NCBI RefSeq assembly: GCF_004366375.1
Contig: NZ_SOEF01000025.1
Span: forward strand, 1-41,881
Source: Halanaerobium congolense
Lineage (GTDB): Bacteria; Bacillota; Halanaerobiia; Halanaerobiales; Halanaerobiaceae
Direction: 5' to 3'
Length of the DNA stretch: 41,881 nt
The notes under the pieces were generated by a model. That model had not been told where the DNA came from. It searched no databases and worked only from the letters and a program-made list of their open reading frames with translations. The position numbers and the translations under genes are program-made. Positions within the stretch are counted from its first letter, which is position 1. Each line of letters begins with the position of its first letter. Of this stretch, positions 7,826 to 41,881 are shown piece after piece.

Positions 7826-7878
7826 GAAGTCAGAAGTTAAGAAAAGCAAATAAAAAATACTTAAGGAGTGAATTAGAT

Positions 7879-8529
7879 ATGAAAAAATTATTAACAACTT
7901 TATTGGTGATGCTTTTATTAGGAACAGTATTTACAGGTGCAGTTTTTGCTCAGGGGGCACAGTCTAAAATGGGAGCTGCAAATAATCAACCCCGTTACAA
8001 TCAGGATCAAAGAGATTATGGTGTTGGCTATAACAGAGTTGAACTAAGTGAAGAACAGATCAATCATATTGCTGATTTAAGAGAAGAATTTTATAATGAA
8101 ACTGCAGATTTAAGAGCTCAACTACAGGATTTAAACCGTGAAATAAGAGATTTAGAATTCCGAGGAGCATCTTATGCAGAAATTGGAGCAGTAGAAGATG
8201 AAATAGAAACTGTTTTAGTTGAAATGGATGAAAAAAGAATTGCTCACCAGGAAAATATAGAAGCAGTAATGACAGAAGAACAACTACAGCAAATTGAAGA
8301 AAATCGTTTAAATTATGAAGAACGTTTCCAAGGTCGCTATAACAATGAATTTGGTCCAAGATCTCAGATGGATTATGGCAGAAATAGTTTTTCCAACAGA
8401 GCTTTTGGCCACCATGGATTTGACGAATATGGCTATGGAATGATGGGAAGATCTTTTAACGATCGTGGAAGAACTGGTAGCTTTAGATCTAATAGAGGAT
8501 TTGGATATGGAGCCGGTTTCTGCCACTAA
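7879..8529 (+). CDS. Spy/CpxP-like periplasmic protein
   Basis: This 216-residue secreted protein has a clear signal peptide (MKK start, cleavage after about Ala-Phe-Ala, residue 24). Residues 55-150 form long acidic helices with a duplicated LSEEQINHIADLREEF / MTEEQLQQIEE pattern, resembling the LTxxQ repeats of Spy/CpxP/ZraP chaperone-like proteins. The tail (about 150-216) is rich in Gly, Arg, Phe and Tyr, with several His residues and a final Cys-His that could bind metal. AAGGAG at 7863-7868 supports the start. It sits directly before the efflux operon, has its own promoter and is followed by a strong terminator. A role in envelope-stress or metal sensing is inferred from fold and position. 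Confidence 0.75.
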   Translation: MKKLLTTLLVMLLLGTVFTGAVFAQGAQSKMGAANNQPRYNQDQRDYGVGYNRVELSEEQINHIADLREEFYNETADLRAQLQDLNREIRDLEFRGASYAEIGAVEDEIETVLVEMDEKRIAHQENIEAVMTEEQLQQIEENRLNYEERFQGRYNNEFGPRSQMDYGRNSFSNRAFGHHGFDEYGYGMMGRSFNDRGRTGSFRSNRGFGYGAGFCH

Positions 8530-8558
8530 ATAAATTTAAAAAATAAATAATATTTTAA

Positions 8559-26234: not shown

Positions 26235-26697
26235 TAATTCTCTATTTTTATGTATATTTAAAAAATTATATATCTCTATTTTTATCTATTCAATTCTATC
26301 TCCACATAGAACAGAAATAATATTTTGAAATTAATTCATAACTAGAAAGAATAATAAATTTAATTTTTATTATATTTCATTTATTTTTATAAAAAAATAA
26401 TTAAAATCAGAATAAATATATATTTAAAATAATTAATAACGTCTTTATATGGGGATTAATAAATAAATTCCGGTATTATTTTTGATATTATGTTATTATG
26501 AATAAAATAATTAATTATAAAAAAGGTAGTTTAAAATTATAAAATGAAAAAAAATAAAAAAAATGATAAAAAACGCTTGTTTTTATTTTTTTTTTATGTT
26601 AGTATTAAATTAACGAAAAAGTTAGTTAATTCATTTTATTTAAATTTTAATTTTAAATACCTTGGCCAGGTAATGTAAAAATCTAGGAGGGACTAAA
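26235..26697. other. Long AT-rich intergenic region before the sugar-phosphate locus
   Basis: This 463-bp stretch has long A and T runs and no convincing coding frame. Its 3' part contains the regulated promoter at 26577-26624, an imperfect 15-bp palindrome TACCTTGGCCAGGTA at 26659-26673, and the AGGAGGG site of the isomerase gene. No DnaA-box cluster was seen. Confidence 0.6.
26577..26624 (+). promoter_or_regulatory. Promoter with putative DeoR-type operator, isomerase operon (site 1)
   Basis: TTGTTT at 26577-26582, a 17-bp spacer, then TAGTAT at 26600-26605. TAACGAAAAAGTTA (26611-26624) follows directly, a TAAC/GTTA inverted repeat with 6 bp between. The layout matches the promoter at 37219-37266 nearly base for base around CGAAAAAGTT. 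Confidence 0.6.
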
Positions 26698-27180
26698 ATG
26701 ACAGAAATATCTAAGAAAAAAATTGTAATTGGTGCAGCGACTGCTGGAATAGAACTTAAAGAGGTAATTAAGGAAATGTTGGATGAAGAAGGGATAGCAT
26801 ACGAAGATGTGGGTCTTGATTCTGTTGATGATGAAATGTATTATCCATCAGTAGCAAAAAAATTATCAGAAAGAATTATTGCTAGTAATTATGAAAAAAA
26901 TGGTATTTTAATCTGTGGTACAGGAATTGGAATGGCAATAACTGCTAATAAATTTCCAAAAATTTATGCAGCTCAGGTTTATGATACATTTGCTTCTGAA
27001 AGAGCATCCTTAAGTAATGATGCTAATGTTATTACACTTGGATCAAGAATTACTGGTCCTAGACTTGCAAAGAAAATTGTAAAAGAATGGCTCGGACTTG
27101 AGTTTGAACCGGGACGTTCAACTCCAAAGCTAAAAGAAATTTATGATATTGAAAAAGAAAACTTAAAAGGTATTGAATAA
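26698..27180 (+). CDS. RpiB/LacAB-family sugar-phosphate isomerase, atypical active site
   Basis: This 160-residue aldose-ketose isomerase has the RpiB fold. The loop ICGTGIGMAITANKFP carries the catalytic Cys73. Canonical RpiB has Asp-His after the first strand and a ring-opening His (His98 in E. coli). Here these positions read Ala14-Thr15 and Ser106 (ERASLSNDANVITLGSR). Such changes are expected if the substrate is acyclic. From memory, the ERAxLSN pattern recalls EryI/DerI-type D-erythrulose-4-phosphate isomerases. It heads an operon with transaldolase and transketolase, has an AGGAGGG site and follows a regulated promoter. The fold call is firm; ribose-5-phosphate as substrate is doubtful. 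Confidence 0.88.
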   Translation: MTEISKKKIVIGAATAGIELKEVIKEMLDEEGIAYEDVGLDSVDDEMYYPSVAKKLSERIIASNYEKNGILICGTGIGMAITANKFPKIYAAQVYDTFASERASLSNDANVITLGSRITGPRLAKKIVKEWLGLEFEPGRSTPKLKEIYDIEKENLKGIE

Positions 27181-27254: not shown

Positions 27255-27908
27255 ATGAAATTTTTTATTGACACAGCAAATCTGGAAGAGATTAAAAATG
27301 CAGAAAGTTATGGAGTTATAGATGGTGTAACCACAAATCCGTCACTTGTTGCAAAAGAAGGAGATATTGATTTTCAGACAAGAATTAGTGAAATTTGTGA
27401 TACTATAGATGGTCCTGTAAGTGCAGAAGTTGTTGCACTTGAAGCAGATAAGATGATTGAAGAAGCAAGAGAGCTTGCAGAAATAGCTTCAAATGTAGTA
27501 GTAAAAATCCCTATGACAATGGAAGGTCTCAAAGCTGTTAAAACATTAAGTGATGAAGGTATAAATACAAATGTAACCTTAGTTTTCTCAGCAAATCAGG
27601 CACTTTTAGCTGCTAAAGCAGGTGCAACTTATGTTAGCCCATTTATTGGAAGACTGGATGATCGGGCAGCAAATGGCATGGATCTTGTAAGAGAGATTGT
27701 ACAGATATTTGATAATTATAAAATGGATACAGAAATCATTTCTGCAAGTATTAGACATCCAATGCATGTAAAAGAAGCGGCTTTAGCAGGTGCAGATATA
27801 GCTACAATTCCATTTAACGTAATTGAAAAACTTTCGCAACATCCATTAACTGATATAGGAATAGAGAGATTTTTAGATGACTGGAATAAAACTCAAGGTA
27901 ATAAATAA
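27255..27908 (+). CDS. tal: Transaldolase, small (TalC/FSA) subfamily
   Basis: This 217-residue class I aldolase moves a dihydroxyacetone unit between sugar phosphates. The Schiff-base Lys84 lies in [19 protein letters not shown] is near the N-terminus. Two residues separate true transaldolases from fructose-6-phosphate aldolase: Glu58 (SAEVV), where the aldolase has Gln, and Phe130 ([11 protein letters not shown]), where the aldolase has Tyr. Both favour transaldolase. Length is normal for the short decameric type. An AAGGAGA site precedes the ATG. It lies between the RpiB-like isomerase and transketolase genes, so it probably handles erythrose 4-phosphate and sedoheptulose 7-phosphate in the non-oxidative pentose pathway. 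Confidence 0.93.
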
Positions 27909-27918
27909 GGGGGAAAAG

Positions 27919-29889
27919 ATGTTAAATGAAATTGCAAATGTTGTCTGTGGCTTAGCGGCAGATTCAGTAGAAGATGCTAACTCCGGACATCCAGGTTTAC
28001 CGATTGGTTGTGCAGAGATTGGAACTGCTTTATATGCAGACATATTGAAACATGATCCTCAAAAACCGGACTGGCCAGATAGAGATAGATTTGTACTCTC
28101 TGCTGGTCATGGATCAGCACTGCAGTATGCACTGCTTCACTTAAGTGGTTATGATCTTTCACTGGAGGAATTAAAAAAGTTTCGTCAGCCTGGTTCTAAA
28201 ACTCCAGGACACCCAGAATATGGGATGACTCCAGGCGTAGAAACTACTACTGGTCCTTTAGGGCAGGGCTTAGCTAATGCAGTTGGAATGGCTCTTGCTG
28301 AAGAGATAAAAGCTGCAGAATTTAATACATCTCAACATAAAATAGTAGATCATTATACTTACACTATTGCTGGAGACGGATGTATGATGGAAGGTGTAAG
28401 TTCAGAAGCGGCTTCTCTTGCCGGTCACCTTGCTCTTGATAAGCTAATTGTTATTTATGATGATAACAATATTTCTATAGAAGGTAGTACAGATATTACT
28501 TTTACAGAAAATGTAGCTGATCGATTTAAAGCATATAACTGGCACGTTATTGAAGATGTAGATGGACATGATCTTGAACAGATTAAAAATGCAGTAAAAG
28601 CAGCAAAGGCAGAAAAAAACAAGCCAACACTTATTATGGCTAAAACTAAAATTGCCTGTGGTGCACCTACAAAAGAAGGAACTGCAGCAGCTCATGGAGC
28701 TCCACTTGGTGAAGAAGAAATTAAAGGATTAAAAAAGAATATTGGTCTTCCTGTTGATAAAAAATATTATATATCAGAAGAAGTAAAAGAATTTTTTGCA
28801 GAACGTCAAGTTGTATTAGAAGCTAAAAGAAAAAAATGGGAAGCAGAATTTATTGAATGGGCTAAAAACAATCCTGAATTGAAAGAAAAATGGGATAAAG
28901 CAGAAGCACTTCTTTTACCAGATAATCTTAAAGAAACTATCGAAGAACTTGAAATTGAAACTCCAAATGCTACAAGAAAAGCTTCTGGAGCTGTTCTAAG
29001 AAAACTTGCAGATGAGATTGATTATTTACTTGGAGGTTCAGCTGATCTTGCTCCTTCCAATAAAACATATTTAGATAAATATGCAGAAATTCAGCCCGGA
29101 AATTATATGGGTAGAAATATTAGATTTGGGGTCAGAGAACATGCAATGGGCTCAATCGTAAATGGAATGTTTTTACATGGTGGACTGCGACCATTTGCTG
29201 CAACATTTTTGGTTTTCAGCGATTATATGCGTCCCGCAATTAGGATGGCCGCTTTAATGAAGCTACCAATAATTTATGTATTCACACATGACTCGATTTA
29301 TATCGGAGAAGATGGACCTACTCATCAGCCAGTTGAACACTTAGAAGCTTTGCGTGGAATTCCTGGACTTAAAGTTTTAAGACCGGCAGACGAAGAAGAA
29401 ACAAAAGCTGCCTGGTATGAAGCTATTAAAAATACAGAAGGTCCAACTGCACTTGTATTTACAAGACAGACTCTTCCTCATCTGGACAAAGAAGATGATT
29501 TCTGGACTGGTATGGAAAAAGGTGCTTATAAAATAAGCTCTACAGATTCAGATACTTATCATTATACATTCCTTGCAAGTGGTAGTGAGGTATCACTAGC
29601 AGTCGAAACAGCTGATCTTCTTGAAGAAAAGGGAAAAAACGTACAGGTTATTTCTATCCCAGATAAAGATACTCTTGATGGAAATGAAGAATATTATTTT
29701 GATGAACTGCTTTCTAAAACAGAGAAAACTGTTGTTATAGAAGCAGGTATAGGTAGAGCCTGGCATAATCTACTTAATGGAGATTATGAATTAATTACCG
29801 TAGAGGACTTTGGTGAAAGCGGACCGGGTAATAAAATAGCTGAAAAATTTGGCTTCAATCCAGAAAAAATCATTGAAAAAATAAGCTAG
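27919..29889 (+). CDS. tkt: Transketolase
   Basis: This full-length, single-chain transketolase of 656 residues transfers two-carbon units between ketose and aldose phosphates using thiamine diphosphate. The cofactor motif begins at AGDGCMMEG and continues to YDDNNISIEG. The N-terminal SGHPGLPIG and the C-half pyrimidine-domain segments (RFGVREHAMGSI, HDSIYIGEDGPTHQPVEH) are all present. The ATG at 27919 is preferred for its AAGGGGG site; a longer frame from 27877 overlaps the transaldolase end and has no site. It starts 10 bp after transaldolase and is followed by a terminator, closing the three-gene operon. Many clostridia split transketolase into two genes, so the single chain is worth noting. 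Confidence 0.95.
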   Translation: MLNEIANVVCGLAADSVEDANSGHPGLPIGCAEIGTALYADILKHDPQKPDWPDRDRFVLSAGHGSALQYALLHLSGYDLSLEELKKFRQPGSKTPGHPEYGMTPGVETTTGPLGQGLANAVGMALAEEIKAAEFNTSQHKIVDHYTYTIAGDGCMMEGVSSEAASLAGHLALDKLIVIYDDNNISIEGSTDITFTENVADRFKAYNWHVIEDVDGHDLEQIKNAVKAAKAEKNKPTLIMAKTKIACGAPTKEGTAAAHGAPLGEEEIKGLKKNIGLPVDKKYYISEEVKEFFAERQVVLEAKRKKWEAEFIEWAKNNPELKEKWDKAEALLLPDNLKETIEELEIETPNATRKASGAVLRKLADEIDYLLGGSADLAPSNKTYLDKYAEIQPGNYMGRNIRFGVREHAMGSIVNGMFLHGGLRPFAATFLVFSDYMRPAIRMAALMKLPIIYVFTHDSIYIGEDGPTHQPVEHLEALRGIPGLKVLRPADEEETKAAWYEAIKNTEGPTALVFTRQTLPHLDKEDDFWTGMEKGAYKISSTDSDTYHYTFLASGSEVSLAVETADLLEEKGKNVQVISIPDKDTLDGNEEYYFDELLSKTEKTVVIEAGIGRAWHNLLNGDYELITVEDFGESGPGNKIAEKFGFNPEKIIEKIS

Positions 29890-30169: not shown

Positions 30170-31908
30170 GGTGTTTGCAAAATAGACAAAGAAAATAGTA
30201 AAAAACTGTAAGTAATGGGTTGAGTTCAATTTTAAAAATTTAAAAATTGAATAAGAAAATGTTCTAATAAAACTAAGCATGACAAAATAAACCTATGAAC
30301 ACAGGTTTTAAAAAAAGATATTAAAAGATTTAAATTCTAAGCAATTAGTGATCTTAAAGATCTAATATTTTCTGGTTTATCCATTTTATCAGCTAAAATC
30401 AATGTTAAAAGCTGAGTTATTCCAGCCAGAAAAACATCTGCTTTAATACTCTTTAGATTCTGAGTTTTTAGATTACCAGTAACCATAGCATCTTTAAAAT
30501 AGTTAATTGTCTGTTCAACCACTCCGCGTTTTTTGTAGAGATCTATCCAGTCATCTGTATCTCTAATGATACCAGGATAAGTTCTTAAATCCTGATTTGG
30601 ATAAGTATAGATAACTCTACCATAACTGGAGTCAGTACAGGGGTTTTCACAGCAGCAGTTTCTTTTACCGCCTTTATGATTGGTTTTTGGACAGACAAAT
30701 TTAAATCTGGGGCTGCGATTCTTTTCGCGTGACCAGCCAGCTGGTTTCATTGGTAAAGAGGAATCTTTAGGACATAAAGGCCAGCCGTTTTCATTGTAAT
30801 TTGGTTGGGGTAGATCTGAACTACTATTTCTAGGATTAAGTGGAATGACTGCTTTATCAAAGCCAAAATCCTTAATTAAAAAGGGGTAAGTCTGATAATT
30901 ATCAAAGGCAGAATCAGCGATAAAAGTGGAATAATGTTGATTACTATGAAGATTGAAATAATCTTCTAAAACTGGTTTTAAAGAAGTTGAATCTCCAATT
31001 GATTTGTCTTCATCAGGTGAGTCAGATTTTTTCTCAATAGGTACTTCAGGGTGATTATCTTTAAAGTCATCATCAAAAAAGGAGATATGACGGATAATAC
31101 CAAGCCCATTAGTGACAATACCAGCTTTGTAGACATAGCAGAAATGACCATTGATATAGAGCTGTTTAATCTCTTGATTAACATGAGCTGAAGAAGGCAT
31201 AGACTGATAAGCGAAGGAATATATATTAACATTTTTATCGTTTCTGTAGATGTTTTTAAGTCTGCGAATGATATTGTTTATGTATTTAGGATTGTTTTCA
31301 GTCACATAGGGTTCAAAGCCAGTTGTATCATAGATGAAAAGATCAGATTTTAGAGGGTCAATTTTTCTGCAAAGAGGTTCAGTAACATCAACAAGATGAT
31401 AGAAAAGATCTTCTAAGTGATCTTCAAACTTTGTCTTAAAACGAGAAAACTGAGAGATATCAGGAACAGATTTAAAACCACAGAAATCTCTTAAGTCGCT
31501 GCTCAATGCAAAAATATTAACTAAAAGTACAAGAGTTGGAATTCCTAATATTTTTTGAAGGATAAAGGCAGAAAGTATTGATTCCAGACCATATTCTCTT
31601 TTTCTACCAAAATATTTGTAGTAAGCATTGTAGAAACTGGCAGGAATAAATTCAGATAAATCAAGATATTGATCGAGCATTTCAAGGAATTGAGGTTTAT
31701 CATTTTGAGCCCAATCTTTGGCTTGTTCATAAAGATCACCGAAAGACAATTGCTTTTTAGAATTAAAAGACATTATGATTTCCTCCTTTTGATTTGTGGT
31801 ATTTTTAGTATCTCTAACTATATTATACCATATCTTAAGGAGGAAGTCACCAAAAATTTATGTCATGAGCCCTGTTATTTCGGGCCTTAGACATTATACA
31901 AACGACTA
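30170..31908 (-). mobile_element. IS1182-like insertion sequence
   Basis: This element of about 1.74 kb lies between two 14-bp direct repeats. Its ends are loosely inverted (left GTGTTTGCAAAATAGAC; right, reversed, GTCGTTTGTATAATGTC). It carries one DDE transposase with a normal ribosome site. A GCCC/GGGC hairpin around 31869-31886 near its right end may stop transcription. The family name is tentative. It sits directly upstream of the FGGY kinase gene, separating it from its original leader. Confidence 0.75.
30337..31773 (-). CDS. DDE transposase, IS1182/IS4-like
   Basis: This 478-residue transposase has an N-terminal DUF772-like domain (GLESILSAFILQKILGIP and later FCGFKSVPDISQFSRFKTKF). 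A DDE core follows: Asp in SDLFIYDTTGFEPYV, a second Asp in FIADSAFDNYQTYPFL, and Glu in KKRGVVEQTINYFKDA. A Cys-rich insert (KRNCCCENPC, about residue 370) occurs before the last motif. The strong AAGGAGG site before the ATG at 31773 fits. The frame is intact. It is leftward, opposite to the surrounding metabolic genes. Confidence 0.88.
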   Translation of the reverse strand: MSFNSKKQLSFGDLYEQAKDWAQNDKPQFLEMLDQYLDLSEFIPASFYNAYYKYFGRKREYGLESILSAFILQKILGIPTLVLLVNIFALSSDLRDFCGFKSVPDISQFSRFKTKFEDHLEDLFYHLVDVTEPLCRKIDPLKSDLFIYDTTGFEPYVTENNPKYINNIIRRLKNIYRNDKNVNIYSFAYQSMPSSAHVNQEIKQLYINGHFCYVYKAGIVTNGLGIIRHISFFDDDFKDNHPEVPIEKKSDSPDEDKSIGDSTSLKPVLEDYFNLHSNQHYSTFIADSAFDNYQTYPFLIKDFGFDKAVIPLNPRNSSSDLPQPNYNENGWPLCPKDSSLPMKPAGWSREKNRSPRFKFVCPKTNHKGGKRNCCCENPCTDSSYGRVIYTYPNQDLRTYPGIIRDTDDWIDLYKKRGVVEQTINYFKDAMVTGNLKTQNLKSIKADVFLAGITQLLTLILADKMDKPENIRSLRSLIA

Positions 31909-31941: not shown

Positions 31942-33486
31942 ATGAAATATGTATTAGGAGTAGACATTGGTACTGGTGGAGCAAGGGCAGCAATTATTAA
32001 TGAAAATGGAGAATTTGAAAATTCATTCTATACTGATCATGATTATAAGATACCTAAAGCAGGTTGGGCTGAACAGGAAGCAAATGTATATTGGGACAGT
32101 TTTTGTGAGGTGGTTCAAGAGGCTACAAATTGGGTTGAAGAACAGAATGGCGAAATTGTAGGGCTTGGTATTAGTGGTTTAACTCCAGATGTTTTACCTA
32201 TAGATAAAAATGGAAAGGCTTTATATCCCGCAATTCTCTGGCTGGATAGAAGAGGTACAGAAGAAGGTGAATGGATAAAAGATGTTATTGGTGTAGATAA
32301 AGTATTTGAATTAAGTGGAAACACAGTTGACCCTTATTATGGATTAGTAGAACTTCTTTGGTTAAAAAATAAAGAACCAGGCATTTATGGACAAGCAGAT
32401 AAGTTTGTAAATATTAAAGATTATATTATTAATAAAATAACTGGAACAGTTTGTATGGACTATACTCAGGCAGCCTGTACAGGTATTGGTTTTGATATTC
32501 GCAAAAAGCAGTGGGATCCTGCAATGTTCGATAAACTTGGTCTGAATATTGACAAGATGCCTGATCTAGTTAGACCAGAAGAAGTAATTGGAAAAACTCT
32601 GCCAGAAATAAGTGAAAAAACTGGTTTGAAACCTGGTATTCCAGTAGTTGCTGGAGCAGGGGATTGTTTTGCAAGTGTAATGGCTGCTGGCGTTAGTGAA
32701 GTTGGAGAAAATGTTGTAGCACTTGGCACATCAGCTGTTTGGGGCTTTTTAGGAAAATCAGATGATTTTGCAAAAAATATGCTTGTTTCACCTGCACCAG
32801 GTTACCCTGATATGTATCTTACTAGTGCTGCTCCAGCTTTTACGGGTGGAGTTTATAAATGGATTAGAGATAATATCATGGGACATGAAGGTGAAGATGC
32901 CTATATTAAAATGAATAAAGAAGCTGCAGAAATCAATCCTGGCTCAGATGGATTAACTATACTTCCATATTATGCAGGTGAAAGATCACCTGTCTGGGAT
33001 GCAAGAGCTAGAGGAGTTATGTTTGGTTTGTCCACGGACCATACTAGAGCTAATATATTTAGAGCTGGACTCGAATCTGTAGCATATGCACTGCTTGATA
33101 GTTTGAAATACATTAGAGCTTCAGGTACTGAGATTGGTAAAGATATGGTTGTAACGGGTGGTATGGCTAAAAGTAAATTATTGAGAGAAATTTTAGCCAA
33201 TACTCTAAACATGAATGTTATTTACATTGGTGGTCATGTAAGTGCCGAAGTAGGTTCAGCTTATATTGCTGGTAATGGTGTTGACCTATTTGAGAGCTAT
33301 GAAGTTGCAAAAGAAAAACTAGATCTTATCGATAAAATTGAGCCGGATCCAAAGATCAACGAAATTTATGAGGAATACTATGAGAGAGTCTACAAACACC
33401 TACATCCAGCTCTTAAAGATATATTTAGTGCTAACTATGAAATTAGAAATAATGTTGATAAGTTAATAAATTCATTTAATTGCTAA
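31942..33486 (+). CDS. FGGY-family carbohydrate kinase
   Basis: This 514-residue sugar or polyol kinase belongs to the FGGY family (xylulokinase, glycerol kinase, erythritol kinase). It has the N-terminal ATP-site strand GVDIGTGGARAAI, the ILWLDRR segment (about 98-104), the likely catalytic base Asp241 in VVAGAGDCFASVMAAG, and the C-terminal VTGGMAKSKLLREIL. The family phosphorylates ketoses, polyols or related compounds with ATP. The substrate cannot be told from these motifs; xylulose, another ketose or a tetritol would all fit the locus. AGGAGGGG at 31927-31934 is close to the end of the insertion sequence, so expression may now depend on a promoter in or near that element. Confidence 0.92.
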   Translation: MKYVLGVDIGTGGARAAIINENGEFENSFYTDHDYKIPKAGWAEQEANVYWDSFCEVVQEATNWVEEQNGEIVGLGISGLTPDVLPIDKNGKALYPAILWLDRRGTEEGEWIKDVIGVDKVFELSGNTVDPYYGLVELLWLKNKEPGIYGQADKFVNIKDYIINKITGTVCMDYTQAACTGIGFDIRKKQWDPAMFDKLGLNIDKMPDLVRPEEVIGKTLPEISEKTGLKPGIPVVAGAGDCFASVMAAGVSEVGENVVALGTSAVWGFLGKSDDFAKNMLVSPAPGYPDMYLTSAAPAFTGGVYKWIRDNIMGHEGEDAYIKMNKEAAEINPGSDGLTILPYYAGERSPVWDARARGVMFGLSTDHTRANIFRAGLESVAYALLDSLKYIRASGTEIGKDMVVTGGMAKSKLLREILANTLNMNVIYIGGHVSAEVGSAYIAGNGVDLFESYEVAKEKLDLIDKIEPDPKINEIYEEYYERVYKHLHPALKDIFSANYEIRNNVDKLINSFNC

Positions 33487-33711: not shown

Positions 33712-34572
33712 ATGCTTACAAACTTAAATGAAGTATTACCTCAAGCAAGAAAAGAAGGCTATGCAGTGCCCGCATTTGACTGTATTGAAGATTTTATGGT
33801 CAGAACTATTTTGGATACTGCAGAAAAAAATAACTCACCCGTAATTTTAATGTCTTTAAGACACGATCTTGAAGGTAAAGGATTTAGTTATATTGCAGGT
33901 TTGATTAATAAAGTTGCTCCAAAATATCACATACCAATTGTGCTTCATCTTGACCATGCAGAAGATTTTGAGTTCATAAAAAAAGCTATTGATAATGGTT
34001 TTAGTTCTGTGATGTATGATGGTTCTAAGCTTCCATTTGAGGAGAACATAAAGAATACAAAAGAAGTAGTTGACTATGCACACGCTAAAGGAGTTACGGT
34101 TGAAGCCGAATTGGGCCATGTGGGTGGAATGAATCTTGATGGAAGCAAAGAGGGGGATTCCCAACTTACAAAATCGGAAGATGTGAAAACATTTATCGAA
34201 AAAACTGGAGTTGATGCCTTAGCAGTTTCAATTGGTACAGCTCATGGTGTTTACGAATCCGAGCCGAAATTAAATATTGAACGGTTGAAGGAAATTAATG
34301 AAGTCAGTTCGGTTCCACTTGTACTCCATGGTGGTTCTGGCACACCTGTAAAACAGGTTCAAAAATCTATAAAAAATGGTATTACTAAGATCAATATCTT
34401 TGCTGATTTGAGAATCTCTATGTATAAAGGTCTTTTAAAAGCTGCTGAAAAGGCAAAAAAAGACGCTAGAATTGATCCAACACCAGATATGCTTTTTGAA
34501 CCGATCAAAAATTATTTAAGTAACACTGTGGCTACAAAAATAGAAGAGCTATTTTCTGATAATAGAGTTTGA
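33712..34572 (+). CDS. Class II ketose-(bis)phosphate aldolase (FbaA/GatY/KbaY family)
   Basis: This 286-residue zinc-dependent aldolase splits a ketose phosphate into dihydroxyacetone phosphate and an aldehyde. Visible active-site elements are Asp81-His82 (LHLDHAED), the Glu133 region (VEAELGHVGG), His178 (GTAHGVY) and His206 with the following Gly loop (LVLHGGSG). Length matches the fructose-bisphosphate/tagatose-bisphosphate family. The exact substrate cannot be read from the sequence; the HLDHAED variant replaces the more usual QLDHG. The AAGGAG site supports the ATG. It lies 225 bp after the kinase and 76 bp before the dehydrogenase, which has its own promoter, so the kinase product may feed this enzyme directly or after conversion. 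Confidence 0.9.
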   Translation: MLTNLNEVLPQARKEGYAVPAFDCIEDFMVRTILDTAEKNNSPVILMSLRHDLEGKGFSYIAGLINKVAPKYHIPIVLHLDHAEDFEFIKKAIDNGFSSVMYDGSKLPFEENIKNTKEVVDYAHAKGVTVEAELGHVGGMNLDGSKEGDSQLTKSEDVKTFIEKTGVDALAVSIGTAHGVYESEPKLNIERLKEINEVSSVPLVLHGGSGTPVKQVQKSIKNGITKINIFADLRISMYKGLLKAAEKAKKDARIDPTPDMLFEPIKNYLSNTVATKIEELFSDNRV

Positions 34573-34579
34573 TTAACTA

Positions 34580-34633
34580 TTGAACAGAATATGGAAAACA
34601 AAATATAATTAGATTTGACGTAACGAAATGTTA
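34580..34633 (+). promoter_or_regulatory. Promoter with putative DeoR-type operator, dehydrogenase gene (site 2)
   Basis: TTGAAC at 34580-34585, an 18-bp spacer, then a consensus TATAAT at 34604-34609. Eleven bases further, TAACGAAATGTTA (34621-34633) forms a perfect TAAC/GTTA inverted repeat sharing TAACGAAA with site 1. Confidence 0.6.
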
Positions 34634-34648
34634 ACTGGGAGGAATAAT

Positions 34649-35902
34649 ATGAAAACTAGAGCTCTGAGATTATATGAAAAAAAAGATTTAAGGTTGGAAG
34701 AATTTGAACTTCCCGAAATAAAAGAAAATGAGATTCTGGCAGAGGTTGTCACAAACAGTATTTGCATGTCGACATACAAAACGGTTCTTCAGGGAGCCGA
34801 CCATAAGCGTGTTCCTAATGATGTTGCAGAAAATCCAACTATTACAGGACATGAATTTGCAGGAGAAATTTTAAAAGTCGGTTCAAAATGGCAGGATGAA
34901 TATCAGCCTGGACAAAAATTTACTGTTTCACCAGTTTTAGATTACAAGGGTAAATCCAATACTGCAGGTTATTCTTATAAATATTTTGGCGGCAACAGTC
35001 AGTATGTAATAATTCCAGCAGAAGCGATGGAGCTAGGATATCTTTTTAAATATGAAGGAGATGCTTTTTATGAAGCATCATTAGCTGAACCTATCTCCTG
35101 TGTGATTGGTGGTTATAAATCCGTTTATCATAATGTTGATGATTATACTCATAAAATGGGAATAATTGAAAATGGAAGCACAGCTCTTCTGGGAGCTGCT
35201 GGTCCGATGGGTATTGGTGCTTTAGATTATGCCCTTCACTCAGAAAGAACTCCTTCTCTTTTAGTTTTGGTAGATATAAATCAGGATAGATTAGATAGAT
35301 TGGCAAAGATTTTCCCACCAGCAGAAGCAGAAAAAAATGATATTGAATTACATTATATTAATCCACAGGATGAAAATGATCTGATTGAAAAATTAAAAGA
35401 ACTTAATGGAGGCAGTGGTTATAATGATGTATTTGTATATGCTCCTGTTAAATCTCTAGTTGAAGATGGAGATAGGCTTTTAGGTGATGATGGAAATCTG
35501 CATTTTTTTGCAGGCCCTACAAACAAAAACTTTTCAGCTGAAGTTAATTTTTATAATGTGCATTATTCTGCTACTCATTTTACAGGTTCATCAGGTGGCA
35601 ATGATGAGGATATGAAAGAAGCTCTCAGACTTTTTGCAGAAAGAAAACTAAAGCCTGCTAAAATGATTACCCATATAGGTGGATTAAATACTGCTGAAGA
35701 TACTATTTTGAATCTTCCTAATCTGCCAGGTGGGAAAAAATTGATTTATACAGGAATTGATATGGAATTAACTGCATTAGATGATCTTGCTGTACGCGGA
35801 GAAGAAGATGCTCGTTTCACTGAATTGGCAAAAATAGTTGAAGACAATAATGGAATATGGTCAAAAAAAGCAGAAGAATATCTTCTCCAGAATTTCAAAT
35901 AA
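34649..35902 (+). CDS. Zinc-type dehydrogenase resembling sorbose-1-phosphate reductase (SorE/YggP-like)
   Basis: This 417-residue medium-chain dehydrogenase/reductase has a catalytic zinc site with Cys39 (NSICMSTYK), His68-Glu69 (TGHEFAGEI) and Glu in EASLAEPISC. The four-Cys structural zinc lobe is absent. The Rossmann motif is ALLGAAGPMGIGALD. The opening (ALRLYEKKDLRLEEFELPEI, then GADHKRVPNDVAENP) matches my recollection of L-sorbose-1-phosphate reductase and E. coli YggP, so a sugar- or polyol-phosphate substrate is likely. The ATG at 34649 is chosen because CTGGGAGG at 34635-34642 fits it; an ATG at 34628 lies within the operator. A terminator follows. Confidence 0.85.
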   Translation: MKTRALRLYEKKDLRLEEFELPEIKENEILAEVVTNSICMSTYKTVLQGADHKRVPNDVAENPTITGHEFAGEILKVGSKWQDEYQPGQKFTVSPVLDYKGKSNTAGYSYKYFGGNSQYVIIPAEAMELGYLFKYEGDAFYEASLAEPISCVIGGYKSVYHNVDDYTHKMGIIENGSTALLGAAGPMGIGALDYALHSERTPSLLVLVDINQDRLDRLAKIFPPAEAEKNDIELHYINPQDENDLIEKLKELNGGSGYNDVFVYAPVKSLVEDGDRLLGDDGNLHFFAGPTNKNFSAEVNFYNVHYSATHFTGSSGGNDEDMKEALRLFAERKLKPAKMITHIGGLNTAEDTILNLPNLPGGKKLIYTGIDMELTALDDLAVRGEEDARFTELAKIVEDNNGIWSKKAEEYLLQNFK

Positions 35903-36035: not shown

Positions 36036-36806
36036 TTATTTACCAACTATGATATCAATTCCTGCTTCTTTAATTTTCTTTACATCATCTTCTTCTATAC
36101 CAGAATCGGTTATTAGTAGATCAATATCACTTGTTTTTGCAAACTGAGCTGCAGAAGTATGGCCAATTTTAGTATGATCAACTAATGCAATAAGTTTACT
36201 GGATTTAGATACCATTTTCTTTTTTAATTCTACTTCATAAAAATTGAAATCTGTTAAACCATTATTAACATTAAATCCATGTGAAGAAGTAATCATTAAA
36301 TCAGCTGAAATATCATCTAACATACAGCTACCAATTAAGCCTTCAACCGATCCTGATTTAGGTCTTACAATTCCACCGAGAAGGATTACATTAAAATCTT
36401 CTTCATTTTTTACTTCAAGTGCTGTGTAAATACCATTGGTAAGAACGGTTAATTTTTCACAGTTGGAAAGATAAGGAATAAGATAAAGGATTGTTGAACT
36501 GGCATCAAGTATAATTGTCTGACCACTTTTAATATAATCTTTTGCTAACTTACCAATTGCTTTCTTTTCTTCAATATTTTTTTCACTTCTTTTGTGAAAA
36601 TTACGAAAACTATCGACCTCATCTTTATCCGGAAGAACAGCTCCACCATGGATTCTTTCTATAAGACCTTGTTCTTCCAATTGGGCTAAATCGTTGCGAA
36701 TAGTTGCACCTGAAACATCTAGTTCTTTTTCCAGTTTTTGAGTAGATATTTGCTTATATGTTTTAAGCAACTCTAAAATTTTATTTTTTCTGGTATGTGA
36801 AAGCAT
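36036..36806 (-). CDS. DeoR-family transcriptional regulator
   Basis: This 256-residue repressor-type protein has an N-terminal winged helix (residues 1-55) with the DeoR signature ISTQKLEKELDVSGATIRNDLAQLEEQGLIERIHGGAVL. The effector domain follows (about 75-250), a ribose-phosphate-isomerase-like fold with DASSTILYL, LTVLTNGIY and LLGGIVRPKSGSVEG. Such regulators usually sense phosphorylated sugars. The ATG at 36806 is chosen for its GGAGG site; a TTG at 36821 overlaps it. It is leftward in the middle of the catabolic locus, with related promoter elements at 26.6, 34.6 and 37.2 kb that could be its operators. No copy was found before its own gene. Confidence 0.92.
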   Translation of the reverse strand: MLSHTRKNKILELLKTYKQISTQKLEKELDVSGATIRNDLAQLEEQGLIERIHGGAVLPDKDEVDSFRNFHKRSEKNIEEKKAIGKLAKDYIKSGQTIILDASSTILYLIPYLSNCEKLTVLTNGIYTALEVKNEEDFNVILLGGIVRPKSGSVEGLIGSCMLDDISADLMITSSHGFNVNNGLTDFNFYEVELKKKMVSKSSKLIALVDHTKIGHTSAAQFAKTSDIDLLITDSGIEEDDVKKIKEAGIDIIVGK

Positions 36807-37324
36807 AGAAAAGACCTCCAATCTATAATTTTTAATAAAATTATCTTATTTGAATTTTATGATCAATATTGAATGTTCTTATTAAAGGTCCATTTAGAAG
36901 TTTATTTGGATATTAAGGCCTTTTATATTTTTAATTGTATTTTATAAAATTTCAATTGTCAAGCATATATTCAGTAAAATTAAAAAAAATTTAAAATTAC
37001 TTCTTTTTTATCTTTGAAATAAAAATAAATAAAAAAATATTCAAGAATTAAAATTTTAGTTCAGGCAGAATTATCTAGGTTTATAAATGTATTTAAAGCT
37101 TAACAAATTAGAGATTAAAGCAGATAGCAAAAGATAAATAAATATAGAATACTAAAAAGGTATATGAAAAAATAATAAAAATATATGAAAAAATATGAAA
37201 ATAAATAATAGAAAATACTTGCTTTTAGTTTTATTTTATGTTAATATTTAATTGACGAAAAAGTTTTTATATTCTTTATTAAGTAAAATAATTAAAATTG
37301 GTTTAATCTTAAGGAGGAATTTTA
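36807..37324. other. Divergent AT-rich intergenic region between deoR-type and AraM-like genes
   Basis: This 518-bp noncoding region is about 80 percent A+T by eye. A possible leftward promoter for the regulator is TTGATC, 17 bp, TAATTT on the minus strand (about 36870-36840). The regulated rightward promoter lies at 37219-37266, followed by an AAGGAGG site. No coding frame or RNA gene was recognised. Confidence 0.55.
37219..37266 (+). promoter_or_regulatory. Promoter with putative DeoR-type operator, AraM-like gene (site 3)
   Basis: TTGCTT at 37219-37224, a 17-bp spacer, then TAATAT at 37242-37247. TGACGAAAAAGTTT (37253-37266) follows directly. It shares ACGAAAAAGTT and the same distance from the -10 with site 1, though the outer inverted bases are less perfect. 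Confidence 0.6.
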
Positions 37325-38656
37325 ATGGATTTAAATCTTAAAGAAATTTCAGGAAAAGAATGTTCATGTGGTAAAGTACACGAGGTACCTATAAAAGAGG
37401 TTGTAATTGAAGAAAATGCTTTGAGTAGAATCCCAGATTTAATAAGTAGAGTATCTGAAGAAAAAAAGGTTTATGTTGTTAATGATAAGAATACAAAAGC
37501 TGCTGCAGGTGATAAAGTACAATCGTTGCTGAAAGAGTCAGGTTTTGAAGTTGAAGAAATATTACTAAAAGAAAAAGAAGGTGATGATCACCTAGTTCCA
37601 GATCCAGATGCAATTTTTGGTGTTTTATCTGGTGTAGATGATGATGGATATATTTTGGCAGTTGGGTCAGGAAGCATCAATGATCTTACCGCTTATGCAG
37701 CTCGTAAAATGGGCAGACCATATTCTATCGTAGCTACTGCTCCTTCAATGGATGGTTATGCTTCTTCCATTGCTTCTATTACTTATGAGGGTGTAAAAAA
37801 ATCTTATGATATTATCCCACCAGATTTTATAGCTGCAGATCTTAATGTACTTGCTGAATCACCCTGGAAGTTAATTCAATCAGGACTTGGTGATTTACTT
37901 GGTAAAGTGACTTCACTGCTGGGATGGAAGATGCAGCGTGAATTATTAGATGCATATTTCTGTCAGGAAGCTTATGATATGGTTGAGAACGTATTGGATG
38001 ATCTTTTCAATGACTATGAAACGATTATTGAACGTAAGATTGAAGGAATTGATGCCCTGACAAAAGGATTGATTTATTCAGGTATTGCAATGATGATGGT
38101 TGGCAACTCAAGACCGGCTTCTGCAGGAGAACATCAGATATCACATTTCTTTGATATGTATTCTGGTATATTCCAGGAATCTGTGCCTACACATGGAATA
38201 AAAGTTGGAACAGCAACAGTTATTACTAGTGAATTTTATTTAAAACTGCTTGAAACAAATTTTGTTGATCTTGAATTAAATCATGATAGAGAAGCAAGAG
38301 AAAAAGCAATTAAAGAAATTTACTTGGAAAAAGCGCCTAAGATATTAGAACTATTAGATCAAAGATGGGAACGCGAAAAGATAAGCAAAGAAAAACTGCT
38401 TGAAAAAGAGGGAAACTTAAAATCTTATATTGAAGAATATAAAGAAAATCTGAAAAAAGTAGATGAAATTCTTGATGATTTTGGTTTTTTTGACAGAGAA
38501 GATGTTAAAGGACTTAATCATGATTGGTTGCGAAAAGCTGTAAATTATGGTTTTGAAATAAGGGTTCGCTATTCTATCTTAACACTATTAAATCAGGCTG
38601 GACTTCTGGAAGATTGGGCAGAAGAAGCAATTGATAATTTAGAAACAAGACTTTAG
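37325..38656 (+). CDS. sn-glycerol-1-phosphate dehydrogenase family protein (AraM/EgsA-like)
   Basis: This 443-residue NAD(P)-dependent, metal-dependent dehydrogenase resembles B. subtilis AraM, which reduces dihydroxyacetone phosphate to sn-glycerol 1-phosphate. It has the nucleotide loop AVGSGSINDLTAY (112-124), TAPSMDGYASS (138-148), and metal ligands in SGLGDLLGK (Asp190), AGEHQISHF (His270) and PTHGIKVG (His290). The N-terminal CSCGKVHEVP motif is also typical. It is about 50 residues longer than AraM, mostly towards the C-terminus. Strong AAGGAGG site. It is followed by a HAD phosphatase, mirroring the araL-araM pair of the Bacillus arabinose operon. It may act on a different polyol phosphate here. 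Confidence 0.88.
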   Translation: MDLNLKEISGKECSCGKVHEVPIKEVVIEENALSRIPDLISRVSEEKKVYVVNDKNTKAAAGDKVQSLLKESGFEVEEILLKEKEGDDHLVPDPDAIFGVLSGVDDDGYILAVGSGSINDLTAYAARKMGRPYSIVATAPSMDGYASSIASITYEGVKKSYDIIPPDFIAADLNVLAESPWKLIQSGLGDLLGKVTSLLGWKMQRELLDAYFCQEAYDMVENVLDDLFNDYETIIERKIEGIDALTKGLIYSGIAMMMVGNSRPASAGEHQISHFFDMYSGIFQESVPTHGIKVGTATVITSEFYLKLLETNFVDLELNHDREAREKAIKEIYLEKAPKILELLDQRWEREKISKEKLLEKEGNLKSYIEEYKENLKKVDEILDDFGFFDREDVKGLNHDWLRKAVNYGFEIRVRYSILTLLNQAGLLEDWAEEAIDNLETRL

Positions 38657-38828: not shown

Positions 38829-39638
38829 ATGACTAAAATTAAAGATATCAATTGTTTTTTACTTGACATGGATGGTACCATTTATTTGAGCAATAAATTA
38901 ATTGATAAAGCAGTAGATTTTATTAATCTACTTGATGAACAGGGTAAGGATTATGTTTTTTTTACAAATAATTCTTCCAAAAATACTAAGGATTATCAAA
39001 AAAAGCTAAAGCGTTTTGGTCTAGAAGTTCCAGTCGAAAGAATTGTTAATTCAGGTCAGGTTACTGCAGATTATGTCAATAAGAAGAAAGAAGGAGCAAA
39101 GGTTTATCCTTTAGGAACACCTTCTTTAGAACAGGAATTAGCTGATGCGGGATTAAAAATAGCAAAAGATAAAAATGAAGATATAGATTTTGTTGTTTTA
39201 GGTTTTGATAAAACTCTAGAGTATAAGAAACTCTGGGATGCACATGATTTAATACTGGATGGGGTCGAATATATAGCCACAAATCCCGATTATGTCTGTC
39301 CACTTGAAGGTGGCAAAAGCATGCCTGATTGTGGCTCGATGATCAGTCTTCTCGAAACATCTACAGGTAAGAGACCACTGGTGATTGGGAAACCTAATAC
39401 TATGATGGTTGATTATGTATCTGATACTCTCGGTGTAAAAAAAGATAGAATGGCTATGGTTGGAGATAGGCTTTATACAGATATTAAGATGGCCATTGAT
39501 GCTGATATTACAAGCATACTAGTTTTAAGTGGTGAATCAACTAAAGAAACGCTTGAGGAGAGCCCTCATGAACCTGATTATGCTCTCGAATCTGTTGCAG
39601 ATATAATGGATGAACTAAAAAATAATAATAGTCAGTAG
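38829..39638 (+). CDS. HAD superfamily (IIA, NagD/AraL-type) sugar phosphatase
   Basis: This 269-residue cytosolic phosphatase has the nucleophile motif FLLDMDGTIY (Asp13, general acid Asp15), motif II in FFTNNSSKN, the Lys in IGKPNTMM and the metal motif MVGDRLYTDIKMA. The cap is of the C2 type, as in NagD and AraL. Family members hydrolyse a range of sugar phosphates and glycerol phosphate, often to limit build-up of toxic intermediates. It lies 172 bp after the AraM-like gene and 62 bp before dhaK. Together with the dehydrogenase it could convert dihydroxyacetone phosphate to glycerol, or trim side products. Ribosome site is weak (AAAGGGAA). Confidence 0.9.
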   Translation: MTKIKDINCFLLDMDGTIYLSNKLIDKAVDFINLLDEQGKDYVFFTNNSSKNTKDYQKKLKRFGLEVPVERIVNSGQVTADYVNKKKEGAKVYPLGTPSLEQELADAGLKIAKDKNEDIDFVVLGFDKTLEYKKLWDAHDLILDGVEYIATNPDYVCPLEGGKSMPDCGSMISLLETSTGKRPLVIGKPNTMMVDYVSDTLGVKKDRMAMVGDRLYTDIKMAIDADITSILVLSGESTKETLEESPHEPDYALESVADIMDELKNNNSQ

Positions 39639-39700: not shown

Positions 39701-40726
39701 ATGGGTAATCCAAATTATGAGAAGTATCTTAATGATCCGGAAGATTTGATTGAAGAGATGATTGATGGTTTTGTTAAGTCATATGAAAACAAAATAAAAA
39801 GGGTTTCGGAAAGATGTGTTGCGAAAAAAGAAGCCCCTATTAAAGGTAAAGTAGGAGTAGTCTCTGGAGGTGGCTCAGGTCATTTACCTGCATTTATGGG
39901 ATATATTGGTCAAGGAGCATTAGATGCAGTAGCAGTAGGAGATATTTTTTCCTCGCCTTCGGTTGATCATATTTATGAAACTATTAAAGCTGCAGATGGA
40001 GGAGAAGGAGTTCTCTGCTGTATAGGTAACTTTAGTGGAGATATCATGAATTTCGAAATGGCAGCAGAAATGGCTGAAGAAGATGGAATAGATGTAGATA
40101 CAGTTATTATTAATGATGATGTTGCTTCGGCACCAAAAGAAAAGATGGAAAACAGACGTGGTGTTGCAGGTGAGGTAATTATTTGGAAGATTGCTGGAGC
40201 AATGGCAGAAAGAGGATACAGCTTAGCAAAAATGAAAGAAATTTCCGATAAAGCCCTATTTAACACACGCAGTATGGGAGTTGCTCATAAACCATGTATT
40301 ATGCCGACAAATGGTGAACCCAGTTTTGAGTTAGCAGAAGGTGAAATGGAAATTGGTGTAGGACATCACGGTGAGCCAGGTATTAGAAAAGAAACTATGA
40401 AAACAAATAATGAGGTTACAGCTGATTTAGTTAACATAGTTCTTAAAGACCTCCCCTATAAAGAGGGGGATGAGGTAGTTGTTTTAATCAATGGTCTTGG
40501 AGCCACCTCTCCTCTTGAAATGTATATTTCTTATCGTAAAGTATATAATATGCTTGAGGAAAAAGGAATAGATATTGTTAAAAACTATATTGGTGAATTA
40601 TTTACTTCACAAGAGATGGCAGGTTATTCTATTACACTAACCAAAGTTGATGATCAACTAAAAGAATTGTTTGCTGATAAATGTGATGCAGTATCCTTTA
40701 AACAAATGAAAGAGGATATTAACTAA
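39701..40726 (+). CDS. dhaK: DhaK-type dihydroxyacetone kinase subunit, variant substrate motif
   Basis: This 341-residue ketone-binding subunit of the dihydroxyacetone kinase family has a GGGSGH loop (His61) and Asp114 in NFSGDIMNF. His223 in GHHGEPG is the residue that binds the substrate carbonyl covalently. The common GHEPAHAG motif of DhaK reads GHLPAFMG here, and the usual KNYTGD reads GNFSGD, so the pocket may be altered. DhaK needs a DhaL nucleotide subunit (and DhaM for PEP-dependent forms); none is visible. An IS1380 copy begins 21 bp after the stop, so dhaL may lie beyond it. Strong AAAGGAGG site. The substrate may be dihydroxyacetone or a related ketose such as erythrulose. Confidence 0.9.
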   Translation: MGNPNYEKYLNDPEDLIEEMIDGFVKSYENKIKRVSERCVAKKEAPIKGKVGVVSGGGSGHLPAFMGYIGQGALDAVAVGDIFSSPSVDHIYETIKAADGGEGVLCCIGNFSGDIMNFEMAAEMAEEDGIDVDTVIINDDVASAPKEKMENRRGVAGEVIIWKIAGAMAERGYSLAKMKEISDKALFNTRSMGVAHKPCIMPTNGEPSFELAEGEMEIGVGHHGEPGIRKETMKTNNEVTADLVNIVLKDLPYKEGDEVVVLINGLGATSPLEMYISYRKVYNMLEEKGIDIVKNYIGELFTSQEMAGYSITLTKVDDQLKELFADKCDAVSFKQMKEDIN

Positions 40727-40747: not shown

Positions 40748-41881
40748 AACTTGAATTCGGCAAGTAAAAAGTTAAAGTAGTTCTTTTTAGATTTTTGCCG
40801 TTAAAAAATCATTTCAATCTATTAAAATTAAATATTTAGTCTTAATTTAGATAACCAGTTAAATAAATTATCCAGCTCCCAGATTTCAGACGCACTTAAC
40901 TAAACTATGGTTTTCATAGCTTAAAAATTAGTCTCAACTGTACTGGTGGTTTTAATTTAGGACCACCTTCTTTCTAAAATCTGTTAACGCCTTTCTAAGA
41001 TGTGTAATTGTTTTTTTCAGCAGTTTATTTGGGGCAAATCGGATGTGTTTGTACCAGCCACTGCCGCAGATATTACCTGCTATTTTGTAAAATATTCTTC
41101 TGATCGTTGTTATCTCATGATGGTGCATACTTTCAGGTAAGAAAGTTCTTTTAAACCAGTTATTAAGGTTAAAAGCAATCATTTTAATCAGTAAATACAG
41201 TTCATTACATTTGCGATTAATCTGAGTGTTCTGGTCAAAGGCAAAACCTTCTTTCAGCTCGTCAATCTTGTTTTCAATATTACAGCGTTGGTTGTAGTCA
41301 TTAAATACTTCTTCAGCTGTTAGATAGTCAACATTAGTAACTATGGCCTGATATTCATAGGTGAACTCTTCAAAAAGAAGCTGACCATTTTTGTTGCTTT
41401 TAGGTAACGATTTTTTGATTAAAACAAATCTACGCTCTCTATCCCAGCTTTTTAATGGAACTCTAATTTCTGTAACACTAAATGTGTTATCAATTTTGAC
41501 CCAGGGGTATTGGTCTGGATTTTCATTAACATAATCAATAATTTTTTTGACACCATTTTGCATTTTAGCTTTGATCACATATTCGATACCGTTATCTTCA
41601 CAGTATCTAAAGTTTTTCTGATCAAAAAATCCTCTATCTGCTCTGATTCTTTTTAGATACCAGGTTTTAGGTAGAGTCTCAATACAGGATTCTAAGAAAC
41701 TAAGGAATTCATGGTTGCTGTGATGAGTACCTTCTTCCAGTGTCAGGTTAAGTAGTTCATCAGTCTTAGAAATGATACCAACTTTCTCTTTAAAAGAAGG
41801 TCTGCCTTTATATCTTGGATTATATCCATTTTCAGAACCTTCCTGATTACCAAAAACAGTACAGACTGTATCATCAAAGTC
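40748..41881 (-). mobile_element. IS1380-type insertion sequence, right copy, 5' part outside window
   Basis: This is the reverse-complement counterpart of 1-1134, collinear over 1134 bases with about 27 differences, most of them silent. It begins 21 bp after dhaK with AACTTGAATTCGGC, the downstream end of the element. The outermost 95 bases match those of the left copy exactly. The other end and any target duplication are outside the window. Confidence 0.85.
40952..41881 (-). CDS. IS1380-family transposase, C-terminal 309 residues (partial at window edge)
   Basis: The frame is open from the window edge at 41881 to the stop at 40952. It has the same catalytic elements as the left copy (DFDDTV at the edge, RADRGFF, and the Y-R-E-K motif in YNQRCNIENKIDELK). 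Over the shared C-terminal 208 residues it differs by one, Ser for Asn in LPKSNKNG. No frameshift or stop is seen, so both copies look functional over the visible part. It points toward dhaK, so its transcripts would run antisense into the metabolic locus unless stopped. Confidence 0.88.
   Translation of the reverse strand, partial: DFDDTVCTVFGNQEGSENGYNPRYKGRPSFKEKVGIISKTDELLNLTLEEGTHHSNHEFLSFLESCIETLPKTWYLKRIRADRGFFDQKNFRYCEDNGIEYVIKAKMQNGVKKIIDYVNENPDQYPWVKIDNTFSVTEIRVPLKSWDRERRFVLIKKSLPKSNKNGQLLFEEFTYEYQAIVTNVDYLTAEEVFNDYNQRCNIENKIDELKEGFAFDQNTQINRKCNELYLLIKMIAFNLNNWFKRTFLPESMHHHEITTIRRIFYKIAGNICGSGWYKHIRFAPNKLLKKTITHLRKALTDFRKKVVLN

Follow-up and report, generated by a model that had tools for sequence, protein, structure and literature searches.

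EryI/DerI of the Brucella and Rhizobium erythritol loci is described as a D-erythrulose-4-phosphate (D-erythrose-4-phosphate) isomerase. The eryR-tpiB-rpiB module is presumed to be present in all erythritol users (PMC3599248), and EYI1 of Yarrowia, an EryI homologue, is required for normal erythritol use (PMC5992420). A related protein is the putative RpiB of Coccidioides immitis (3qd5/3sdw/3sgw): a 2011 paper (PMC3212906) described its change of His to Ser and its Ser/Ser/Lys phosphate site, and proposed a substrate with a shorter chain.

An RpiB-family isomerase in Halanaerobium congolense

We analysed a window of 41,881 nucleotides from Halanaerobium congolense, which encodes at 26698..27180 on the forward strand a 160-aa sugar-phosphate isomerase of the RpiB/LacAB family, belonging to the EryI/DerI-like Ser class described below. 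The ATG start is preceded in the sequence by an AGGAGG ribosome-binding site (26685..26690, forward); a promoter and terminator scan returned signals no commoner than in shuffled sequences. The protein matched PF02502 over its full length (150.8 bits, cut-off 24.7), has the Cys73-Gly-Thr-Gly loop, and passed the PRK05571 and rpiB_lacA_lacB subfamily models. It missed the rpiB equivalog TIGR01120 (122.4 bits versus a cut-off of 138.65), which some other Ser-class proteins narrowly pass. Its predicted structure has a mean pLDDT of 93.6, and C. immitis 3qd5 is the closest solved structure both by sequence and by predicted fold. Identity as LacA or LacB was rejected, with scores of 52-74 bits against cut-offs of at least 164 and a lone gene in the genome instead of a lacA/lacB pair.

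With E. coli RpiB (AlsB) the protein shares the fold, the catalytic Cys, the GTG loop and the Asn that follows the His/Ser position. A sequence-only reading of the window had noted that Cys73 (codon 26914..26916, forward) is kept and that the first-loop Asp-His has become Ala14-Thr15 (26737..26742, forward). Alignment to E. coli RpiB bore out both points, pairing Cys73 with Cys66, Ala14 with Asp9 and Thr15 with His10. That reading was also right that Ser106 (27013..27015, forward; Ser109 in C. immitis) replaces the ring-opening His, although this residue is His99 in E. coli, not His98 (PMC4783025, PMC3755991). Downstream, Ser141 and Lys144 (codons within 27118..27129, forward) correspond to the C. 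immitis phosphate ligands Ser145 and Lys148, where E. coli has His134 and Arg137. The canonical RpiB ligands His99, His10, His134 and Arg137 are all absent, with Ser106, Thr15, Ser141 and Lys144 in their places. Arg102 (27001..27003, forward), the equivalent of C. immitis Arg105 and invariant in the Ser class sampled here, completes the class signature Arg102-x3-Ser106-Asn107, Ser141, Lys144.

The phosphate ligands Ser, Ser and Lys, with the Arg behind them, thus match those published for C. immitis one for one, so the signature singled out by the sequence-only reading is known in kind. The C. immitis protein differs in the first loop, where it keeps Asp16 and has a second Asp at the next position; the window protein has Ala-Thr. 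The ERAxLSN segment, which the sequence-only reading had correctly named as an EryI/DerI feature, was found as ERAALSN in Brucella 5ifz, and it also occurs in the Rhizobium ery-operon protein. EryI/DerI enzymes (NF051858; Brucella 5ifz) share with the window protein this segment, Ser in place of both the ring-opening and the phosphate-binding His, the Cys, and linkage to genes for entry into the pentose phosphate pathway. They differ in that the window protein has Ala14 for Asp, is only ~40% identical and scores below the cut-off of their model; its gene also lacks a tpiB partner and lies among different neighbours. On NF051858, the curated NCBI DerI model for Rhizobiales, the window protein reached 133.4 bits versus 240. 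Proteins of Listeria, Arthrobacter and Pantoea from clear DHA-kinase/TPI operons also missed this model (143-179 bits).

Two classes of the family and their gene neighbours

We compared 142 family members, drawn from relatives, a GTDB genome scan, annotated plasmid records and PDB sequences. They comprised 94 His-class rows, 45 Ser-class rows including the window protein, and 3 others. His99 is present in 94/94 His-class proteins, His134 in 91/94 and Arg137 in 93/94; with His10 counted too, each canonical ligand is kept in 91-94 of 94 rows. Among Ser-class proteins outside the Halanaerobium family, Ser106, Arg102 and Ser141 are each found in 40/40 and Lys144 in 37/40. Since Ser106 is common to all Ser-class rows, it is not a sequencing error.

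In a maximum-likelihood tree the window protein fell outside a single His-class group (support 97/95), which also took in one long-branch row. After removal of long branches and of the diagnostic columns, the Ser and His classes lay on the two sides of one branch, again with 97/95; the midpoint root is arbitrary and we claim neither class as ancestral. Ser-class members include the window protein, the Rhizobium ery-operon RpiB, Listeria and Arthrobacter proteins and C. immitis 3qd5. The order of Ser subclades was poorly resolved, except that the window protein lay nearest other Halanaerobiales-type proteins. This tree, of the kind that the sequence-only reading proposed as a check, places the protein outside canonical RpiB and within the Ser class that contains EryI/DerI, and the view that it is not a canonical RpiB is supported.

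Two side observations concern the His class. Two His-class-like RpiB homologues (L050:8437-8901 and L051:8036-8500) have the loop VDGVGIGS, with the catalytic Cys changed to Asp. In several genomes of the same order (L005, L006, L008, L012, L013, L015, L022, L023, L028 and L033), His-class RpiB makes up the C-terminal portion of a longer ORF (~310-330 aa), which suggests fusion to another domain of ~160 aa.

The two classes keep different company. A DHA-type (dihydroxyacetone/erythrulose-type) kinase or TPI gene lies within 6 kb in 23/40 Ser-class versus 0/58 His-class loci (Fisher p 6e-12). For upp, which marks the housekeeping context of rpiB, the counts are 0/40 versus 28/58; these loci are related by descent and not independent, and p-values serve as a guide only. 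The kinase/TPI-positive Ser-class loci span Bacillota, Pseudomonadota and Actinomycetota. The ery locus of Rhizobium ruizarguesonis encodes an FGGY kinase, a glycerol-3-phosphate dehydrogenase-type protein, a TIM-barrel protein, two regulators, TPI and an RpiB; this RpiB, part of the eryR-tpiB-rpiB module, passes NF051858 (257 versus 240) and closely matches Brucella 5ifz. Further Ser-class proteins come from Rhizobium operons with OiaX and TPI. In Listeria (L058), the Ser-class gene is accompanied by DhaK2, DhaL2, DhaM2, TPI, SDR, fructose-6-phosphate aldolase and transketolase genes. The Listeria cluster resembles the window in that genes for a fructose-6-phosphate aldolase-type transaldolase and for a transketolase come after the isomerase gene, but it has a dedicated TPI and DhaKLM, and its isomerase keeps the Asp.

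Closer to the window, three loci of its own bacterial class (L039, L042 and L040) encode orthologous isomerases with 57-65% identity to the window protein, in clusters whose gene content sets out the tetrulose-phosphate route. The L039 cluster holds an MDR dehydrogenase, DhaK, DhaL, isomerase, TalC, Tkt and an ABC transporter, and L042 has the same kinase and dehydrogenase genes near its isomerase. L040 combines TPI, a RuBisCO-like protein, DeoR, isomerase, TalC and Tkt. Its RuBisCO-like protein (L040:5816-7093) most resembles 2,3-diketo-5-methylthiopentyl-1-phosphate enolase, with a weaker likeness to OiaX, and a variant apionate route may be encoded here. A more distant isomerase (L041, ~45-47% identity) lies among DhaK, TPI and DhaL genes.

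Database names do not follow this division: Ser-class proteins are often called ribose-5-phosphate isomerase B. The Arthrobacter Ser-class protein (L059:5992-6462), encoded between DHA-kinase- and TPI-family genes, passes TIGR02133, an NCBI equivalog for ribose-5-phosphate isomerase, a model that probably covers and misnames DerI-type enzymes.

The Halanaerobium cluster and the lost aspartate

In the window the isomerase gene is followed on the same strand by genes for a TalC/FSA-type transaldolase (27255..27908; TIGR00875, 336 bits, over the cut-off) and a transketolase (27919..29889; TIGR00232, 825 bits, over the cut-off). A transposase gene on the reverse strand (30337..31773), which is not found at that place in orthologous clusters, splits this block from the rest of the cluster. 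Beyond it, the forward strand encodes a xylulokinase-like FGGY kinase that scores under the equivalog cut-off (31942..33486), a class II ketose-(bis)phosphate aldolase (33712..34572) and a zinc-type (MDR) polyol/sugar dehydrogenase (34628..35902). A DeoR-family regulator gene on the reverse strand (36036..36821) is followed by forward genes for a glycerol-1-phosphate dehydrogenase-like protein (Fe-ADH_2; 37325..38656), an HAD-IIA phosphatase (38829..39638) and an orphan DhaK-type kinase subunit (39701..40726). The contig closes with a second transposase (40952-41881), of which a near copy lies on contig 29 (L062:4144-5511).

Halanaerobium clusters hold an FGGY kinase, a class II aldolase and the glycerol-1-phosphate dehydrogenase-like gene, not the usual DhaKL and TPI. 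In one relative (G006), which has no transposase at this place, the order is isomerase, TalC, Tkt, glycerol-3-phosphate-responsive antiterminator, SDR, FGGY kinase, aldolase, MDR, DeoR, glycerol-1-phosphate dehydrogenase-like, HAD, DhaK. A second genome (G013) shares most of this order, and G006 and G010 are close relatives of each other. G010 also carries the isomerase gene with transaldolase and transketolase; it has ethanolamine lyase genes, which H. polyolivorans and other congeners have too. No DhaL gene was found beside the window DhaK, which is followed by the IS element and is an orphan in the relatives too; a complete DhaKLM is encoded on another contig of the same genome. A search for a local LerI-type TPI was negative, and the genome holds one TPI. 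Measured from the isomerase, the orphan DhaK is 12.5 kb and the FGGY kinase 4.8 kb away, with no TPI, whereas some orthologues of the order and class have kinase or TPI genes adjacent. The MDR and glycerol-1-phosphate dehydrogenase-like genes are weakened as obligate partners, being present in congeners without the isomerase.

The window genome carries two RpiA genes (L062:1963-2685 and 7873-8544, on contig 29), 5 kb apart with a transposase between them. A role as the sole cellular ribose-5-phosphate isomerase was therefore rejected, and ribose 5-phosphate supply in this cell does not need the Ser-class enzyme. Each of the ten Ser-class genomes that are at least 90% complete likewise encodes a separate ribose-5-phosphate isomerase: in G000 (the window genome), G006, G010 and G013 this is RpiA, without any further RpiB, and in G015, G017, G023, G025, G041 and G059 it is a His-class RpiB. 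Nearly complete genomes of the genus without a Ser-class gene have RpiA, except one (G011) with a His-class protein.

Ala14 is the new point; the rest of the signature is known in kind. Of the other class-assigned sequences, 134/134 have the first-loop Asp (40/40 Ser class, 94/94 His class), and Ala takes its place in 5/5 orthologues of the Halanaerobium family, which are all those found in 14 genomes of this family. A sequencing error or pseudogene was rejected, as the five orthologues use different Ala codons and have dN/dS of 0.04-0.19 (approximate, dS being near saturation). They keep the Cys, Thr and Asn, and their sequences indicate purifying selection as a working protein. The clade sits on a long branch with 100/100 support and has other changes at conserved sites: Gly to Lys88 in 4/5, His to Tyr95, and Ser to Ala or Gly99.

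In the solved and modelled relatives this Asp is prominent. C. immitis Asp16 was called universally conserved and lies 2.6 Å from a ligand (PMC3212906); LacB Asp8, its equivalent in LacAB, contacts O3, and its mutation abolishes activity (PMC3755991); and in modelling of L. donovani RpiB the equivalent Asp is a key substrate contact (PMC4783025). Given the O3 contact and the essential role of the equivalent Asp in LacAB, normal DerI catalysis is not assured with Ala14. The sequence-only reading had grouped the change of Asp to Ala with that of His to Ser, as if a tetrulose substrate accounted for both, and here it was not fully borne out: since the other DerI-type proteins keep the Asp, a tetrulose substrate fails to explain Ala14, and the loss is a separate change specific to this lineage. 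That leaves two explanations: a different way of holding the tetrulose phosphate, or a changed substrate. We tentatively raise the possibility that the Halanaerobium-family enzyme, a DerI-type isomerase without the O3-binding Asp, either uses another sugar phosphate of short chain length or handles tetrulose phosphate through a changed mechanism, as part of an erythritol or polyol fermentation route that includes the FGGY kinase and class II aldolase.

Substrate and pathway

We infer substrate, direction and mechanism from these comparisons, and consider that the gene probably encodes an EryI/DerI-type tetrulose-4-phosphate ketol-isomerase. Such an enzyme would interconvert D-erythrulose 4-phosphate and D-erythrose 4-phosphate via a cis-enediol intermediate, with Cys73 as the proton carrier and the enediolate held by Thr75, Asn107′ and the GTGIG loop. 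The ring-opening His would be unnecessary because the substrate is open-chain, and the phosphate of the shorter chain would sit on Ser106′, Ser141′ and Lys144′. The adjacent transaldolase and transketolase would consume erythrose 4-phosphate. In the cell the enzyme would help to degrade a four-carbon polyol (erythritol or threitol) or ketose, or else some sugar giving erythrulose phosphate; candidates for the kinase making the tetrulose phosphate are the FGGY kinase, the orphan DhaK and the distant DhaKLM. Against a DerI function stand Ala14, the lone TPI with no dedicated LerI, the DhaK without an adjacent DhaL, the unusual gene content of the Halanaerobium clusters, and the sub-threshold DerI model score. 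The proposal of a tetrulose-phosphate isomerase made from sequence alone was thus largely right on class, as judged by the tree, the two RpiA genes and the tetrulose-phosphate pathway genes that adjoin class members, and is unproven on substrate, with the DerI model below its cut-off.

It is very improbable that the gene encodes a canonical ribose-5-phosphate isomerase B with unusual residues. The fold, the Cys and the two subfamily models agree with such an enzyme, but Asp9 is missing together with all four canonical His and Arg ligands; H99N lowers kcat 26-fold in E. coli and H102N inactivates the L. donovani enzyme (PMC4783025). The two RpiA genes, the TIGR01120 score and the tree position outside the His class also argue against it. 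A different possibility, which we regard as improbable, accepts the tetrulose substrate and reverses the flux in the cell: erythrose 4-phosphate would be converted to erythrulose 4-phosphate, the HAD phosphatase would then remove the phosphate, and reduction would give a tetritol serving as osmolyte or electron sink. The apparently halophilic nature of the Halanaerobium relatives, and the phosphatase and dehydrogenases of the cluster, are consistent with this; the DeoR regulators and kinases, however, indicate catabolism, erythritol supports growth of a close relative (PMC10536098), and there are genomes with the glycerol-1-phosphate dehydrogenase-like gene and no isomerase.

Less easily set aside, though we still think it rather unlikely, is a DerI-type descendant that, in the Halanaerobium family, has changed its specificity or mechanism and acts on another short ketose or aldose phosphate, supplied through the linked FGGY kinase, aldolase and dehydrogenases. 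Ala14 and the further changes at conserved sites, the long and well-supported branch, the purifying selection and the distinct cluster content of the clade all point this way. Yet transaldolase and transketolase still adjoin the isomerase, as in clear DerI-type loci, the Ser-class residues for phosphate binding and catalysis are otherwise all retained, and the link to the MDR and glycerol-1-phosphate dehydrogenase-like genes may be loose.

Halanaerobium polyolivorans grows by fermenting meso-erythritol, with acetate and hydrogen as products, and the study describing it reported no ery genes and no erythritol kinase (PMC10536098). For the lower part of that pathway, which is missing, isomerase-TalC-Tkt offers a natural candidate. 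The loss under purifying selection of a residue rated essential poses a direct enzymological question. For the family, four residues tell the tetrulose-phosphate class from true RpiB, making many annotations correctable, and the genus gains a concrete candidate gene set for erythritol fermentation.
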